A stretch of DNA of 64,000 nucleotides. It comes from Bryobacteraceae bacterium. Its GTDB lineage: Bacteria > Acidobacteriota > Terriglobia > Bryobacterales > Bryobacteraceae. Position 1 is the first letter of the stretch. Each line of letters starts with the position of its first letter. Below the pieces are notes generated by a model. That model had not been told where the DNA came from and searched no databases. It saw nothing but the letters and a program-made list of their open reading frames with translations. The position numbers were made by a program, and so were the translations under genes. This document shows positions 2,377 through 12,100 of the stretch, piece by piece. Where the stretch lies: assembly GCA_019752335.1 (NCBI GenBank), contig JAIEMJ010000030.1, forward strand, positions 274,597 through 338,596. Reading direction: 5' to 3'.

Positions 2377-3624
2377 TCAACTTGCCTTCTCCAATTTGAA
2401 GACATGTTCCACCGGCTGCGCGGCCAGGCGCTGCGCGCGTTCGAGCTCCAGGGCCAAGGCATCGAGCTGACTCATCGTGGCGGCGCTCGCGTCGAGCGCT
2501 TCGTTCTCCAAAGGCACCTGCAATTCGCGCCAACGGGCGTTCTTGATGCGCGTACGCTTCAGCGTGAGGTCATGGACGCGGCGGGCTTGCTTCGCCATGG
2601 GCGTCTCATAGTCGGCAAGATTGACGCCTTCGCGAAGCTGGGCCGCGCCTAGCCGGGCGATGGGCTGACGGTCGATCGAGAGGCTCCAGTCGCCGGCGGC
2701 GAGGCCGTGGACCGTCAGAAGATGCTGATTCAGGCGGGCGGTGAAGCCGCTGTGCTTTTGGGCGAGCGCGAGGGCCGGGTCCTTCGGGTCCACCGGCATG
2801 GGCAGGGCCCAATCCAATTGATTCCAGGTGACGGCGTCTTCGACGGCCAGGTCCGTGACGTTGGTGTTCTCGGTGACGATGACGTTGCGCGGATTCGTAT
2901 CGAGAACAGTGCGCGAGACGAGCGAAGGCGCGCGCCAGGCGTCGAGCAGGCTCTGCGCCATCACCAGATGGCCGCTGGGTTGGGGATGTACGCGGTCCGG
3001 CAGGAAGCGCTGGGCGAGGGTGGCGTTCTCGGCGTTGGCGCCTTGAAGCGTCTTAGCGAGGAGCCCGTTGAGGTCGGCGATGCCGCACTGGCGCTCCTGC
3101 GCGAGCTTGGCAAGAGCGTCGCCGTAGCGGACCAGCACCGCGTTGTAGCCGCCCTCGAACATGGGTGGCCGGGTGATGTCGTCGTAGGTGGAGGGGCGAA
3201 TCAGCGTGATGCGGCATTCGGGCACTCGCGCCTGGACTAGGCTCACCAGCCGGTTGTAGCCTTGCAGGAATTCGTCGAAGAAGGCCGGATCAAAGGCGCG
3301 ATAGCGGCCGTCGTTCATGCCCAGCATCGAGGTAAACACCGTGGGCCGGTGCGCGAAGACGTCCCGCTGCAAGCGCGTTTCGAGGTTACCACCGCCACCG
3401 CCGGTCACGCGGTCGCCCCCCCAGCCCGAATGCGTGAAGCGCACGGGCATCTTCGGATAGCGGGTGACGACAAACGTCTCGACAAAGGTGGTGTAGAGGC
3501 GCTGATCTGTGATGCTATCGCCGTAGAAGACGACGTGGTCGCCGCCCCGCAGGTAGAAGGCGTCAGTGGCCCGGAGGACGAACGGGGCGAAGGGAAGGGC
3601 CAGGAGATTTCGCCGGGAGAGCAT
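2377..3624 (-). CDS. Tat-exported SGNH/GDSL hydrolase
   Basis: The 415-residue protein starts with a Tat-like signal (SRRNLL). All four SGNH blocks are visible: GDSIT with the nucleophile serine at 37, the block II glycine in WGGD (68-71), GMND with the asparagine at 104, and D210-x-x-H213 completing the triad. Family members are carbohydrate or lipid esterases, often acetyl-xylan-type. The last 180 residues form a second region found in acidobacterial and planctomycete homologues whose role I do not know. It is the first gene of a two-gene unit with the ThuA protein. Only 23 bp separate its start from the divergent sigma factor gene, so the two promoters must overlap or lie within coding sequence. 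Exact substrate is not predictable. Confidence 0.9.
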   Translation of the reverse strand: MLSRRNLLALPFAPFVLRATDAFYLRGGDHVVFYGDSITDQRLYTTFVETFVVTRYPKMPVRFTHSGWGGDRVTGGGGGNLETRLQRDVFAHRPTVFTSMLGMNDGRYRAFDPAFFDEFLQGYNRLVSLVQARVPECRITLIRPSTYDDITRPPMFEGGYNAVLVRYGDALAKLAQERQCGIADLNGLLAKTLQGANAENATLAQRFLPDRVHPQPSGHLVMAQSLLDAWRAPSLVSRTVLDTNPRNVIVTENTNVTDLAVEDAVTWNQLDWALPMPVDPKDPALALAQKHSGFTARLNQHLLTVHGLAAGDWSLSIDRQPIARLGAAQLREGVNLADYETPMAKQARRVHDLTLKRTRIKNARWRELQVPLENEALDASAATMSQLDALALELERAQRLAAQPVEHVFKLEKAS

Positions 3625-3647: not shown

Positions 3648-4274
3648 GTGGAAGAGAATAGGGGTGTCGTGCGTCATAGCGAAGAACTCGTGAGTTTCCC
3701 CAGGGCGGAATCGGACTCGCCGCCCGCGGTGGTTGACGCGGCGCTGCTGTCGCGTTGCCAGCGAGGCGAACGTGCGGCGCTGGAGGAACTCGTCGAACGC
3801 GTGCAAGGGCGCGTCTACAATTTCGCCCTGCGCGCCTGTGGCAGCGTCCCCGCCGCCGAGGACGTCACGCAGCGCGTGCTGATGAAGATGGTGCGCGAGG
3901 TCGGCGCCTTTCGGGCCGAGGCCAGCTTCACGTCGTGGCTCTACCGCATCGTGGTAAACGAGTGGATCGACGAGCGGCGGCGGGTGAAGCGGCTGGTGTA
4001 TTGGCCGGTGGAGACGTTGGCGCGTTGGCGGTCAGCGCGGCCAGGGCCGGAGCAATTGGAGGGTCGCCGGGAGCGCGAGGAGGCAGTGCTGGCCGCGGTG
4101 GGCCGGCTGGAGCCCAAACTACGGGCGGTGGTGCTGCTGCGCTACTTGGAGGATCTGTCGTACGAAGAGGTCGCGGCGGCGTTGGGTTGTTCGATGGGCA
4201 CGGTGGCGTCGCGTTTATCGCGGGCGCACGCACGGTTACGAGAAGAATTGGGAGCGTATCGAGATGAGGTTTGA
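3648..4274 (+). CDS. ECF-subfamily RNA polymerase sigma factor
   Basis: The 208-residue protein has sigma region 2 at about residues 35-105 (LVERVQGRVYNFALRACG, AEDVTQRVLMKMV, FTSWLYRIVVNEWID). Region 4, a helix-turn-helix, is at about 150-200 (LRAVVLLRYLEDLSYEEVAAALG, GTVASRLSRAHARLREEL). It would direct RNA polymerase to a small regulon when released from its anti-sigma partner. The GTG at 3648 gives the longest form. GTG codons at 3669 and 3690 are equally possible, since region 2 only begins near residue 32. Its last codons overlap the start of the following small membrane protein (ATG at 4264), the classic arrangement of a sigma factor with its regulator. No target promoter motif could be identified. 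Confidence 0.93.
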   Translation: MEENRGVVRHSEELVSFPRAESDSPPAVVDAALLSRCQRGERAALEELVERVQGRVYNFALRACGSVPAAEDVTQRVLMKMVREVGAFRAEASFTSWLYRIVVNEWIDERRRVKRLVYWPVETLARWRSARPGPEQLEGRREREEAVLAAVGRLEPKLRAVVLLRYLEDLSYEEVAAALGCSMGTVASRLSRAHARLREELGAYRDEV

Positions 4275-4596
4275 AGAGATCTTGCGGAAGAGCGAGCGGG
4301 CGCAGCCATCGGAGGCGGCGGTGCGGCGTTGGCGGCAGGCGGTCTGGGGTCCAGCACCCGCACCGGCTTGGTTCCCTAATTTGGCCAGCGGACTGGCGAT
4401 GGCCGCCATGATGCTGCTGTTGTGGCCGGCGGCGGCGCGGGGTCCAGTGGCGTTGCGCGCGGCGGGCGAGGCTTGCGACGGCCGCTGGGAGCAATCGGTG
4501 CCCCTGCGAGCCGACGTGCGGACCCTGGCCCGGCCGCAACCGGTATCGCCGAGTTTGGCGGCCAGCGAGAATTGCGGCCTGTGCCACGTGCGTTAG
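4264..4596 (+). CDS. Putative membrane anti-sigma factor with C-terminal CxxCH motif
   Basis: A 110-residue protein whose ATG lies 11 bases inside the sigma factor gene, so the two are co-translated. The first 35 residues are charged (MRFEEILRKSERAQPSEAAV) and would bind the sigma factor in the cytoplasm. One transmembrane segment lies at about 38-58 (LASGLAMAAMMLLLWPAAA), and about 50 residues follow on the outside. The last ten residues contain CGLCH, the c-type haem attachment signature, five residues from the stop. There is no HxxxCxxC zinc anti-sigma motif at the N-terminus. Position and topology suggest an anti-sigma factor. The outward-facing CxxCH could bind haem or form a redox-active disulfide. 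This is inference; the family is not one I recognise by name. Confidence 0.6.
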   Translation: MRFEEILRKSERAQPSEAAVRRWRQAVWGPAPAPAWFPNLASGLAMAAMMLLLWPAAARGPVALRAAGEACDGRWEQSVPLRADVRTLARPQPVSPSLAASENCGLCHVR

Positions 4597-4701: not shown

Positions 4702-4794
4702 ATGTTGATCTTCGTGGTCCCGCTGGCCGCACCGCAAGAAACGCCCCGCGAAGCGTTGCACGAGATACTGGCCGGCGGGGAGAGCGGCCGGTGA
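4702..4794 (+). CDS. Short 30-codon ORF coupled to the SpoIIE phosphatase
   Basis: The ATG at 4702 opens a 30-residue frame (MLIFVVPLAAPQE, then a charged helix and a GGESGR tail). Its TGA at 4792-4794 overlaps the GTG start of the phosphatase. The hydrophobic beginning followed by a polar tail could be a membrane micropeptide, a leader peptide, or a remnant. Overlap with the next start suggests translational coupling. No homologue is recognised, and whether it is translated is uncertain. Confidence 0.35.
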   Translation: MLIFVVPLAAPQETPREALHEILAGGESGR

Positions 4795-7160
4795 CGCGCC
4801 GCTTCGGCTGGTGGGAAGCTTTGTTGGCGTTCGGCTGCCTATGGATTGCAGCGGCGGATTTGCGCTGGTGGTCAGAATACACGCGTCGTCTCTGGGACCC
4901 GGCCATGCCGATGTTGATGAGCGACGCGGTCAGCGGACCCACGCGAGTCGCCGCCCCGTCGGCTCGTTTTGTCGAGGCAGGAGCGCAGGCGGGCGACCGC
5001 ATTCTGGCCGTCGATGGCCGCCCAGTGAAGAGCGTAATCGACTATCGTCGTGGCGTCTTCCGGCACGAGGTGGGCGACCAGATAGCCGTGCGCCTCCAAC
5101 GTGGATCGGCGCAACCCGTCGACGTCGTCACCACGGTGGAAGCGCGACCGCCGATGGCCGCTGAAGCGTGGCTCGCGAACATCCTGGTGGACATCGTCGG
5201 ACCAGCGTTCTGCCTGTTGGTCGGGATCTTCGTCGTGTACCACCGACCCCGTGACCCCGTGGCGCTCGCGTTGTTCGCGCTGTTGATGGGTTCCGCACAC
5301 CTGACCTTTATTAGCGACCCGCAATACAGAGCGCGCTTAGGGAACTGGGCAACAATGGTGCTCTATGGACTGCCTGCGGCTGGTATCCGGCTGATGGCTC
5401 TCGGCAGCCTTTGGTTCGGCTTATTGTTCCCCGATGGCCGCCCACCCAGGCGCTGGTTGCCGTGGATCGGAGGCTTGATCAGCGCGCCTCTGCTGACGGG
5501 CTCGATCGCCGCAACCATGTCCGAAGTGGAGCGGACACATGGATTCGGCTGGCCCACGGCGTGGACACGGCCGATCCTCGGCTACCTGCCGGTTCTCGCG
5601 TGGATGATCATTGTCGCAGCGATCAGCGTGGGCGGGGTGAGTTTGTTCTTGAAGCATGGGCGCGATCCGCGCCGGGTACGTTTCGTAGCCGTTGGGCTGC
5701 TCGCGGCCTTGGCGCCCGTCGTTTTGCTCTACTCGAGCACTTGGGCCTTGCAGCGCAATGCCGTGGACTTAGTGGGTACAGGCGGCGAACAGATGGTTCG
5801 CTTCATGCTGATGGCGATTGCCCCCTTCACCATGGCCTACGCTGTGCTGGTGGACCGGACGATCGATATCGGCGTCGCCCTCCGGCAGGGCTTGCAATAT
5901 GCACTAGCGGCCCGCGGCGTCGCCGTGATGCGACTGCTCCTCTTCGGATTATCGGTCTGGCTCGCCTCTTCGGCGGGTGCCTCCTTGTCGGGTTGGCAGC
6001 GATTCGGCGCCGTGGTTGGCTATCTAGGCGTGATGGCTGTGGGCGAACGCTCCGCCACCGGCCTGCGCGGCTGGCTGGACCGCCGCTTCTTCCGTGAAGC
6101 GGTAGACGCCGAGCGTCTGCTGCAAGGGCTCAGCGAAGAGGTGCAGCATCTGACGGACCCGGTGAGATTGATAGAGAAGGTGAAGAGCCGCATCCGCGAA
6201 GCGCTTCACGTAGACGACGTGGCCGTGTCGCTGGATCCCGCGCCACGTGCCCGCGGCGAACTGGTTTTGCCCCTGACTTCGGGCGGCCGCGAACTCGGCG
6301 TCTTGGCTTTAGGCGCCAAGCGTTCCGAGGAGCCGTACTCGCGCTCCGACGTGCAACTGTTGGAGGCCGTCGCCCGGCAGACGGGCCTCGCGCTGGAGAA
6401 TGGCCGCTTGGCCGAGTCGCTGGCCGATGAGGCCGCGAGGCGAGAGCGCGCGGCGCGCGAGCTTGAGATCGCTCGCGAAGTACAGCAGCGCTTGTTTCCT
6501 CAGAAACCTCCGGCGGTGGATGGGTTAACCATTGAGGGCCTGTGTGTGCCAGCGCAAACCATTGGGGGCGATTACTTCGACTACTTCGCGATGCCCAATG
6601 GAGATGTCGTGTTGGCGATTGGCGATGTCGCGGGCAAAGGTATTCCCGCCGCGCTACTCATGGCAAGTGTGCAATCGGCGGTACGCGCCTTCTGCGCCGA
6701 CGGGGTGACCGATCTGGCGGCTCTCATGACGAAGCTGAATCGAGTGATTTACGATGCGAGCCCAGCGAACAGGTTTGTGACGTTCTGGATCGGAATCTAC
6801 GAACCACCGTCACGCCGGTTGCGCTATTCGAGCGGCGGGCACAATCCGGCGCTACTGGTGCGCGGTGGGGGCACCATCGAATGGTTGCGCACGCGGGGTG
6901 TGGGCTTGGGATTGTCGCGCGGCGCCCGGTTCGAAGAGTCGGTCGTCGTGCTTGGGCCGGGTGATCGTTTGCTGCTTTACACGGATGGCGTGACGGAAGC
7001 TCTGAACGATGCGGGCGAAGAGTTTGGCGAGGAGCGTTTGGTGGAGGAATTTCAACGAAGGGAGTCAGCGAGTGGGTTGGTGGAGGAGTGCCTGCGCTTT
7101 GCCGGCCGGGCGCCGCAACACGACGACCTGACAGTGATCCGCGTGGCCGTTTCTTACTAA
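4791..7160 (+). CDS. Membrane PDZ-GAF-SpoIIE serine phosphatase (RsbU-like)
   Basis: This 789-residue protein has one N-terminal membrane segment (about 8-25). A PDZ-like domain follows at about 50-120 (AGAQAGDRILAVDGRPV). About seven further hydrophobic segments span about 130-420, then a GAF-like domain at about 440-545 (LLEAVARQTGLALENGRLA). A coiled linker precedes the PP2C-type SpoIIE phosphatase at about 558-789. The phosphatase carries the metal-binding motifs GGDYFDYF, GDVAGKG, LLYTDGVTEA and HDDLTVI. Such proteins dephosphorylate anti-sigma-factor antagonists (SpoIIAA/RsbV type) in partner-switching cascades, here in response to a periplasmic or membrane signal. It starts at a GTG overlapping the short ORF and lies about 200 bp after the sigma/anti-sigma pair, so it may feed the same response. 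No RsbV or RsbW is present in the window. A strong terminator follows. Confidence 0.92.
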   Translation: MTRRFGWWEALLAFGCLWIAAADLRWWSEYTRRLWDPAMPMLMSDAVSGPTRVAAPSARFVEAGAQAGDRILAVDGRPVKSVIDYRRGVFRHEVGDQIAVRLQRGSAQPVDVVTTVEARPPMAAEAWLANILVDIVGPAFCLLVGIFVVYHRPRDPVALALFALLMGSAHLTFISDPQYRARLGNWATMVLYGLPAAGIRLMALGSLWFGLLFPDGRPPRRWLPWIGGLISAPLLTGSIAATMSEVERTHGFGWPTAWTRPILGYLPVLAWMIIVAAISVGGVSLFLKHGRDPRRVRFVAVGLLAALAPVVLLYSSTWALQRNAVDLVGTGGEQMVRFMLMAIAPFTMAYAVLVDRTIDIGVALRQGLQYALAARGVAVMRLLLFGLSVWLASSAGASLSGWQRFGAVVGYLGVMAVGERSATGLRGWLDRRFFREAVDAERLLQGLSEEVQHLTDPVRLIEKVKSRIREALHVDDVAVSLDPAPRARGELVLPLTSGGRELGVLALGAKRSEEPYSRSDVQLLEAVARQTGLALENGRLAESLADEAARRERAARELEIAREVQQRLFPQKPPAVDGLTIEGLCVPAQTIGGDYFDYFAMPNGDVVLAIGDVAGKGIPAALLMASVQSAVRAFCADGVTDLAALMTKLNRVIYDASPANRFVTFWIGIYEPPSRRLRYSSGGHNPALLVRGGGTIEWLRTRGVGLGLSRGARFEESVVVLGPGDRLLLYTDGVTEALNDAGEEFGEERLVEEFQRRESASGLVEECLRFAGRAPQHDDLTVIRVAVSY

Positions 7161-9146: not shown

Positions 9147-12100
9147 GCGGCTTTGCCCTTTCCTCGCGCGGTGAGCGCGTACATGCTGGGTAACGCCAGC
9201 AGAGTCAATAAGAGTGTGGAGAGTAACCCTCCCACCACGACCGTGGCCAGCGGCCTTTGCACGTCCGAGCCGATCCCGCTGGCGCGCGCGGCCGGCACCA
9301 TGCCCAGCAGCGCCACCACCACCATCAGGAGTACCGGACGGAGTTGCGCCAAGGAACCCTGGATGATTGCTTGTTGTACCGGCAGTTCCGGATCCGCACG
9401 CCGCCGGCGGTTAATCTCGGCGATGACCAACACGCCGCTCATCACCGCGACACCGAATAAACTAATAAACCCGACCGCCGCGGAAACACTCAGATTAATG
9501 TTTCGCAGATACAGAAAAAGAATGCCGCCCACCAAGGAAAATGGCACATTCATCAACACCATGCCCGCGTATTTCGCCGAGCCAAACATGAAGAAGAGTA
9601 AGACGAAGATAATTCCAATAGTAATGGGCAGGATGACCGTAAGCCGCTTCTGTGCGCGTTGTAAGTTCTCAAATTGTCCGCCCCAGGTGACTTCGTAACC
9701 CACTGGCAATTTGATGGCCGCGGCGAAACGTTGTTGGGCGTCGGCGACGAAGCCGCCCTGGTCGCGACCGCGAATGTTCGTGCGCACGGTGATCTGCCGC
9801 TGATTTTCGCGCCGCGCAATGATACTCGCGCCGTTCACCACCCTAATTTCGGCCAATTGCGACAACGGTACCCGGCCGCCTTCGCGCGTCGGCACCAGCA
9901 CGTTGCCGATGGCGGTGATGTTGGTGCGGGCTTCCGGGATGTAGCGTACGGTGATGTCGAAGCGGCGTTCCCCTTCGAACATCGTGCCGGAAGCGCGGCC
10001 GCCGATGGCCATTTCGATCACGTCTTCCACATCGCGCACGTTGATGCCGTAGCGGGCGACGGCTTGCCGGTCAATCCGCAGACGCAGTTGCGCTTGCTCC
10101 GCTTCCTGCTCAATGGCGGTATCGGCGGCGCCGGGAACGGTGCGGACCACGGCCAGGATGCGCTCGGCGTTGGCGCGGAGGATGGCCAAATCCGGGCCGC
10201 GGATAATCACCGCCAAGTCCGCCGCGGAGCCGGTGACCGATTCGGTGACGTTATCAACGATAGGCTGCGTGAAACTGAAAGCAGCGCCCGGGATGCGGGC
10301 GTTTAGCTTCTTGCGCAATTCCTCAATGAGCGCTTGTTTATTGACTCCCTCGGGCCAGGTATCGTAAGCATTCAGGGCGAGGAAGAACTCGTTGCGGTTG
10401 GGGCCGTAAGGGTCAGTCCCGGCGTCGTTGCGGCCAGACTGGGACGAGACGAGCTTCACCTCGGGATACTCGGCGACGATGCTGCGAATCTGTCCGGCCA
10501 CTTGCGAGGACTTCTCAATGGACACGCCCGGCGGCAGTACCGCGCGGATCCAGATGACGCCCTCGTCGAGATTCGGGAGGAACTCGATGCCCAAGGCGCC
10601 CGCCAAGCCAAACGAAGCCAGCACCACTGCGCCGGAGACGCCGAACACCAGCCAGGGCTGCTTTACGGCGAACTTCAGCACACTGGCATACCGTTTTCCA
10701 AGCCAGGGAAGCAAGGGGTTTTCCCAACTTTTTGCACCGTTCCGGAATAAGTAAGTAGCCAGCACCGGAATCAGCGTGAGGGCGAGTAACATCGATCCGA
10801 GTAAGGCATAAGAAACGGTAAACGCCATCGAGGTAAATAGCTTGCGCTCCACCCGTTCCAGCGTGAAGAGAGGAATATAGGCTGCGATGATAATCATCAA
10901 CGAGAAGAAGATCGGACGCTCTACTTCGAGCGCCGCGTCCCGGATGGCGGCCAGCACGCCGCCATTGGCCTCGAAACCGGGCTGATGTTCGCGTTGGTGC
11001 AAGGTATGCAGAATATGCTCCACCATCACCAGCGTGGCGTCGACAATGATGCCAAAGTCCAGCGCGCCCAGGCTGAGTAAGTTCGCCGGGATACCCGAAA
11101 AATGCATGCAGACGAAGGCAAAGAGCAAGGAAAGCGGAATCGTAACGGCGGTGAGCAGGGCGGCGCGAAGACTACCGAGGAAGAAGAAGAGAACGATGAG
11201 GACAATACCCAAACCTTCGAGCAACGTATGGGTGACGGTATGCAGCGTATTATCGACTAAGTCCGTACGGTCATAGATGGGTGAGAGCTTGACACCCTCG
11301 GGCAGGCGGCTCCCGTTTAAGTCATCCACCGCGAGCTTGATGGACTTGAGCACGTCAGTAGGATTCTCGCCACGGCGCATGAGGACAATGCCCTCGACGC
11401 CGCCCGGGGTCTGGCCCACGCCGAAGATTCCGGTGGGCGCCGCCGAACCGAGTTGCACCCGTCCGACGTCCTTCACGAAGACGGGTACGCCGCGCGCTTC
11501 GGTGACCACAATATTTTCGATATCGGCGATACCCTGAATCAGACCGACGCCACGAATCACCATCGATTGCTGCCGGTTATCGAGCATCGCGCCGCCGGCG
11601 TTGCCATTGTTCGCGCGCACGGATTCGGCGATTTGGGCGATGGTAAGGGAGAATTTCGAGAGCGACAAAGGATCGATCTGAATCTGGTACTGCTTGATGA
11701 GGCCGCCGAAAGGAGTTACGTCAGCGACGCCGGGCACCTGCAAGAAGCGCGGCGCCACCACCCAATCCTGTAGCTCGCGCAGCTTCAGGGAATCGAGACC
11801 GGCACCGGAAATCGTGTAGCGGTAGAGTTCGCCGATGGGCGTCGAAAGCGGACCGAGCCCTGGCGCGACGCCTTCCGGTAAATCGGCGTCGCGGAGTTTC
11901 TCCAGTACCACCTGGCGCGCGAAATAGTCGTTCGTGCCGTAGTCAAAAGTAAGTTCGACGACGGAGAGGCCAAAGATGGTGCGCGAGCGGCGCGCGATGA
12001 CGTTTGGCGCGCTATTCAGGGCGCGCTCAATCGGAACGGTAACCTGTTGCTCCACCTCTTCGGCGGCGCGACCCGGAAACTGAGTTACCACGACGACTTG

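Follow-up and report, generated by a model that had tools for sequence, protein, structure and literature searches.

What would an anti-sigma factor sense if its sequence ended in the signature of a c-type haem attachment site? This question is raised by two overlapping genes in a 64,000-nucleotide stretch of DNA from a soil bacterium of the Bryobacteraceae (hereafter, the window), which a preliminary description, made from the letters alone, had read as an ECF sigma factor paired with a membrane protein that might form an unusual redox or haem sensor. Based on the architecture of the pair, the conservation of its motif, its genomic neighborhoods and its promoters, we consider it fairly probable that the two proteins form an autoregulated sigma/membrane anti-sigma switch for cytochrome c maturation, with the anti-sigma factor's own c-haem site as the sensor.

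The sigma/anti-sigma gene pair

The sigma gene lies in an open reading frame spanning positions 3,648 to 4,274 of the forward strand, the product of which matches the two sigma-70 regions that define an ECF sigma factor, region 2 (Pfam Sigma70_r2, E = 8.3e-16, 58 bits) and region 4 (Sigma70_r4_2, E = 1e-16, 60.8 bits), both above cut-off. The frame is open from 3,648, which had been taken as the start of the gene; since a conserved ECF-type promoter covers this position (−35 element GGAAG at 3,650 to 3,654, −10 element CGTC at 3,672 to 3,675), translation probably does not start there but downstream, with GTG 3,690 as the nearest in-frame candidate, so that the putative gene occupies 3,690 (or a later start) to 4,274. 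The partner gene (4,264 to 4,596, forward strand) encodes a single-pass protein of 110 residues with a C-terminal CxxCH and shares 11 nucleotides with the sigma reading frame. This overlap, the like arrangement in relatives and the alignment of the partners (A4, below) mark it as a predicted anti-sigma gene beside that of its putative cognate ECF sigma factor, and the pairing of a sigma gene with an overlapping membrane-protein gene, as originally described, is borne out.

As modelled by AF2, the window protein consists of two N-terminal helices, a helix at residues 36 to 58 and an unfolded tail; the model has a pTM of 0.32, and thus we use it for the helices only. The N-terminal helices (residues 3 to 12 and 17 to 28; positions 4,270 to 4,347, forward strand; block pLDDT 86 to 92) are the presumed cytoplasmic part that would bind sigma. 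The membrane helix (4,369 to 4,437, forward strand) coincides with the one hydrophobic segment in the hydropathy scan, residues 35 to 53, in agreement with the single membrane helix first proposed. The presumed periplasmic tail (4,438 to 4,593, forward strand) has no predicted fold, with block pLDDT 49 to 58 from residue 61; its placement rests on homology to relatives that bear a zinc-binding (ZAS) domain. It comprises about 50 residues, with no Met and no His besides that of the motif, and ends in ENCGLCHVR. The CGLCH motif (residues 104 to 108; positions 4,573 to 4,587, forward strand), a predicted c-haem type attachment site on the basis of sequence and conservation, is terminal, as had been noticed, although only two residues, V and R, separate it from the stop and not the five given earlier.

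Conservation and placement of the CxxCH motif

The closest comparison is with a relative of the same genus (G001), whose partner is 66% identical over the protein and keeps CGLCH; between the two partner genes dN is 0.32 and dS 1.18 (pN 0.26, pS 0.60). This was the sole clear relative in a single-protein search of 61 genomes; the remaining rows were weak, and one of them, L003, looked unrelated on inspection. Several of the best homologues of the sigma factor in the family (in G077, G031, G025, G035, G078, G083, G084 and G010) likewise have small membrane partners ending in CxxCH. A sigma profile (A2), built mostly from loci already known to carry the motif, was run over 399 genomes of the class, and the independent conservation test consists of the 21 new loci from this search with a sigma score of at least 249 bits, chosen by that score alone. 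The partner has a CxxCH starting at most 33 residues from its end in 20 of these 21, the exception being L231. At L135, which lies near the clade with a sigma score of 244 bits, CxxC is followed by Thr. None of the 16 larger partners at sister loci, L231 included, contains CxxCH, nor was it found near the end of any of 49 candidate partners of ordinary ECF sigma factors outside the clade (control loci L065 to L125, where 49 of 61 yielded a partner candidate and the other 12 lacked a detected sigma or reading frame). Conservation among homologues, which the preliminary description had made a test of its proposal, is thus found, apart from L231 and L135. The sister group itself (L131, L139, L140, L231 to L242 and L245) is characterized by a shared periplasmic domain in its 16 larger partners that looks FecR-like by eye.

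These counts bear on whether the motif could work without haem, its CxxC cycling between thiol and disulfide as an apocytochrome mimic for the reductive branch of the Ccm machinery. CxxC is a usual redox pair, and L135 has one with Thr in place of His; however, His is present in all 20 independent C-terminal CxxC motifs (L135 being outside that set), a residue that a thiol pair does not need, and a plain disulfide switch is disfavoured on this ground. Furthermore, Ccm-I is reported to conjugate haem to virtually any CxxCH it meets (PMC6962350), so that an exported CxxCH tail would be likely to receive haem in this organism, whose genome encodes Ccm. We regard a haem-free thiol sensor as quite improbable.

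Alignment A4 comprises the 30 readable partners with CxxCH, excluding L135, which lacks it, and L132, which is unreadable near a contig end; because only CxxCH-bearing partners were taken in, the invariance of the two Cys and the His is partly by choice. The only other invariant residues are the initiator Met and an Ala within an AP motif near the N terminus. Several partners, the window protein among them, have no domain between helix and motif and retain the motif, and some have shrunk to about 25 to 50 residues past the helix. On the sigma tree, where L132 was labelled as a CxxCH row with its partner unread, the CxxCH rows require three changes and form no single supported clade; they may nonetheless have one origin.

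The window partner has no meaningful match in Pfam or NCBIfam. Sixteen of the 30 aligned members, the window protein not among them, match NCBIfam NF052375 ("anti-sigma factor") at E ≤ 0.01, the best at 7.4e-14 and 52.3 bits, below that model's 100-bit cut-off, and three of the 30 match zf-HC2. Pfam cytochrome families match none of the 30 at E 0.01, and PDB profile matches to cytochromes occur only at E above 1.

The same ending is found on a wider set of anti-sigma factors. Profile A3, built from the longer partners and run over 396 genomes of the phylum Acidobacteriota, recovered a second branch. Of the 28 loci whose partner could be read, 19 carry CxxCH (L250 to L268), in most cases together with a zf-HC2-like motif at the N terminus and with endings such as RGQQSCIVCH; the nine lower-scoring loci (L269 to L277) lack it. 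A profile of this branch (A5) found CxxCH in 10 of the 15 best loci of Methylomirabilota, in 0 of 11 matches in the phylum of a Herbaspirillum genome and in 0 of 20 in that of a Myxococcales genome. Both profiles include the CxxCH columns, which inclines their best matches towards the motif, and reading was confined to the top loci, so these counts are not a census; they do show a CxxCH ending on anti-sigma factors of the ZAS type in other Acidobacteriota and in Methylomirabilota. The expectation that such a partner always stands beside an ECF sigma gene holds by construction for loci found through the sigma factor, and in the second branch a sigma gene lies directly upstream in 17 of 19 loci, L251 being cut by a contig edge and L255 showing none.

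These relatives also indicate on which side of the membrane the motif lies. Exactly one membrane segment precedes CxxCH in 43 of 48 sequences scanned with a 19-residue hydropathy window (L221 counted twice); four have no segment at threshold and one has two. The window protein lacks the HxxxCxxC zinc motif of ZAS domains, which L127, L221, L225 and 17 of the 18 rows of A5 possess. In known ZAS anti-sigma factors this motif is in the cytoplasmic sigma-binding part, and in the members that bear it the order is zinc motif, single helix, CxxCH. Since one helix thus separates the ZAS domain from CxxCH in these homologues, the tail of the window protein is probably periplasmic, and the export that a c-haem site requires may be read from their topology, alongside the presence and conservation of the motif itself. 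The positive-inside rule does not settle the matter for the window protein because, by eye, positive residues flank its helix on both sides.

A longer member, L129, is informative on the same point. Its AF2 model (pLDDT 80.7) has a helix at residues 38 to 65 followed by a beta domain, the structural matches of which at ranks 1 to 6 are all RseB/MucB (Z 7.7 to 8.0, next 6.1); against the small domain of RseB/MucB, Z is 8.0 with an rmsd of 2.6 over 88 aligned residues, and the best Foldseek E is 1.5e-3. RseB and MucB are periplasmic regulators of sigma-E. With this domain between helix and motif in L129, and with the topology of the ZAS homologues, a cytoplasmic C terminus, which would have counted against the original proposal, is probably not the case. 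The likeness to the RseA-RseB and MucA-MucB systems is moderate and is drawn from this one longer relative; in contrast to those systems, the domain in L129 is fused to the anti-sigma factor and followed by CxxCH, and the window protein has no such domain. The likeness may be no more than a common arrangement.

A further parallel is with transmembrane anti-sigma factors of the ZAS type (zf-HC2; ChrR, RsrA, NF052375), which share the position beside an ECF sigma gene and an N-terminal presumed sigma-binding part; several relatives of the window protein indeed combine a zf-HC2 site with a single helix. The window protein and most of its clade differ in lacking the zinc motif, whereas the classical homologues inspected lack the C-terminal CxxCH (0 of 9, 0 of 11 and 0 of 20).

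Neighbouring genes and promoters

In 14 of the 30 loci of the clade, a ccmE gene of the same strand begins 38 to 95 nucleotides downstream of the anti-sigma stop codon, and in 13 of these 14 it is followed by ccmF, ccmH, an unassigned reading frame, ccmA, ccmB and ccmC, the contig of L217 ending earlier. Pfam identifies CcmE, CcmF, CcmH and CcmC in the operon of L129. At L133, ccmF alone is near the pair, while L134 and L136, with less than 430 nucleotides of downstream sequence, are poorly judged for linkage. The same test, in which CcmA was disregarded because its ABC type is widespread, found ccm genes at none of the 16 sister loci. CcmH belongs to the thiol pathway of cytochrome c maturation, and its presence in the linked operons would suit a haem-free thiol sensor. 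The window pair falls outside the ccm-linked group of the sigma tree and is unlinked to ccm in its own genome, in which the operon (CcmE, CcmF, CcmH, CcmA, CcmB and CcmC identified) lies on another contig, C19.

The unassigned reading frame between ccmH and ccmA encodes a protein of about 345 residues and is present in all 13 uncut sigma-linked operons (for example, L129:3517-4551, minus strand) and in the genome of the window (L171, about 10868-11719); it has no Pfam match at E 0.01 and is possibly an additional Ccm component. That genome's operon also encodes, at L171:10524-10931, a small protein ending in a zinc ribbon, for which the only Pfam matches are sub-threshold and of the DZR type.

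Within the window, a gene for a PDZ-GAF-SpoIIE phosphatase protein (4,791 to 7,160, forward strand) follows the pair after 194 nucleotides; we dropped a functional link between them because a different gene follows the pair in G001. A GDSL lipase gene (2,377 to 3,624, reverse strand) is divergent from the sigma gene, with a reading frame of similar start at the same place in G001, and a HicA-type toxin gene (Pfam 3.1e-11) lies at 997 to 1,272 on the reverse strand.

The other branches have different neighbours. In the second branch of Acidobacteriota, the gene divergent from the pair encodes a di-haem peroxidase (CCP_MauG by Pfam on L279, with like proteins in L281, L286, L290 and L297) or, in L282 and L296, another protein with two CxxCH motifs (a sub-threshold DHOR match in L282, no Pfam match in L296). 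In Methylomirabilota, Pfam identifies in the operon after the L361 pair a metallophosphatase, a SoxA/TsdA-like cytochrome, a SoxYZ-like protein, COX1 and FixO/cytochrome c; inspection of the protein starts by eye showed a COX1-like one at 10 of 14 loci, while Pfam was applied to L361 and one L367 gene only. Three branches therefore adjoin three kinds of c-cytochrome genes, those for maturation (ccm), a di-haem peroxidase and a cbb3-like oxidase, which makes a c-haem role for the motif likelier than a bare disulfide. This much of the initial suggestion of a redox or haem sensor is favoured by the neighbours; the sensing itself we infer.

In all three branches the C-terminal motif goes together with cytochrome c genes, which speaks against CxxCH being a Zn, Cu or Fe site of a metal-sensing anti-sigma factor. 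Zinc sites do occur in anti-sigma factors, as the three zf-HC2 matches among the 30 members illustrate, but these lie N-terminally, ahead of the helix, and we consider a metal site at the C terminus highly improbable.

More serious is the possibility that the anti-sigma factor is always matured and that its haem c, possibly five-coordinate, senses redox state or a ligand (O2, NO, CO or peroxide), oxidation or ligand binding at the exposed haem freeing sigma to adjust the respiratory cytochromes. This is kept alive by the di-haem cytochrome c peroxidase (L279) and by the cbb3-like oxidase with SoxYZ and cytochromes (L361) beside which the other branches stand, and the window tail, without another His or Met, offers no usual distal ligand. 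On the other hand, what stands most often next to the pair within the window's own clade is the maturation operon (14 of 30), and a tail with no predicted fold gives no haem pocket for tuning a sensor; lacking fold and further His or Met, it looks more like a reporter of haem attachment than a tuned gas sensor. We therefore judge a redox or ligand sensor unlikely, although with an appreciable share of the probability.

The promoters may extend the link with maturation to genomes in which the genes are apart. The word GGAAG-N17-CGTC occurs upstream of the clade sigma genes in 24 of 30 regions (L132 included, L213 without an anchor), whereas in six block-shuffled sets no word reaches more than 3 to 4; the aligned sites also show an A-rich stretch before it and, at position 28 (two bases past CGTC plus one), an A. 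The window copy, a predicted and presumably autoregulatory promoter at 3,650 to 3,675 on the forward strand, has a matrix score of 22.3 in the window, the next best there being 12.5, and of 21.8 in the scan of the genome. Since the clade promoter sits upstream of the sigma factor's own gene, sigma is probably autoregulated. In the 7.2-Mb genome of the window, GGAAG-N17-CGTC-NNA has 12 matches and the backward-read control 29, so that an isolated match says little unless its score and location are taken into account. Only two of the 12 score above 15: the window sigma promoter and a site before ccmE (17.2), whose −35 word begins 68 nucleotides before the ccmE ATG. The other 10, all within reading frames called by a simple gene picker and scoring at most 12.5, were set aside.

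With a matrix derived from sigma promoters only, we scored the 300 nucleotides before ccmE in 65 genomes, leaving out L164 and L393, which have too little upstream sequence. A score of at least 12, a cut-off chosen with the scores in view, was reached in 8 of the 17 genomes whose clade sigma factor is unlinked versus 0 of 48 in which no clade sigma factor was found among the best 30 or best 8 candidates per genome (Fisher 4.8e-6, the genomes being related and not independent); at a cut-off of 15 the counts are 6 of 17 versus 0 of 48 (Fisher 1.5e-4), and a Mann-Whitney test gives 4e-4. No site reaching 12 is present in 9 of the 17 genomes with the sigma factor, so either the link to ccmE does not hold in all of them or the site has diverged. 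Stronger matches inside the ccmE coding sequence (24.3 in the genome of the window, 21.8 in G001) lie outside the tested upstream region and may reflect conserved coding sequence.

A different word, GGAAT-N15/16-(G)TGTT, faces the sigma gene in 11 of 19 regions of the second branch, eight of which also have a divergent copy. Both orientations are found upstream of sigma at L281, L282, L284, L289, L291, L293, L296 and L297; at L281, L282, L296 and L297 the divergent gene encodes two CxxCH motifs.

A proposed sensor of cytochrome c maturation

Read from the sequences are the architecture of the pair, the conservation of CxxCH, the linkage to ccm in relatives and the promoter shared by the sigma gene and the unlinked ccmE; from these we infer a switch in which sigma binding, haem attachment, the signal, the inducing state, and release or proteolysis would be as follows. 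The N terminus of the anti-sigma factor would retain sigma in the cytoplasm, its one helix would span the membrane, and the periplasmic CxxCH would be filled with haem by the Ccm machinery. When maturation is adequate, with haem available, thiols reduced and Ccm active, the tail would carry haem c and sigma would be held. When maturation fails, the tail would be apo, and the anti-sigma factor would release sigma or be degraded; free sigma would then direct RNA polymerase to the GGAAG-N17-CGTC promoters, inducing the sigma pair and the ccm operon.

In a wider form of this proposal, haem-c anti-sigma factors would be a family of Ccm clients that report the output of the machinery and feed back on ccm, with related branches controlling peroxidase or terminal oxidase genes, in two phyla; for this broader claim we see the balance as even.

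Haem-responsive ECF sigma/anti-sigma pairs are known in HasI/HasS and HxuI/HxuR, in which, according to excerpts of PMC12670364 and PMC11442138, an outer-membrane receptor senses external haem; in the window system, by contrast, the motif is on the anti-sigma factor itself. Excerpts of these two papers and of PMC3174227 and PMC3601427 describe no c-haem-tailed anti-sigma system, and we found no published description of one in a partial literature search that did not extend to the ECF group classification, so that novelty is unproven. An ECF sigma factor with a membrane anti-sigma factor is a known kind of system; its sensing element and the process it controls appear to be new here.

To our knowledge, extracytoplasmic sensing of cytochrome c maturation is poorly understood. 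If the proposed switch is correct, a sensor consisting of one motif on an anti-sigma factor, signalling to the maturation operon, would directly answer how maturation is sensed. The anti-sigma factor should then be a haem protein in Ccm-competent cells, and CxxCH motifs would have a regulatory meaning beyond the classical cytochromes.
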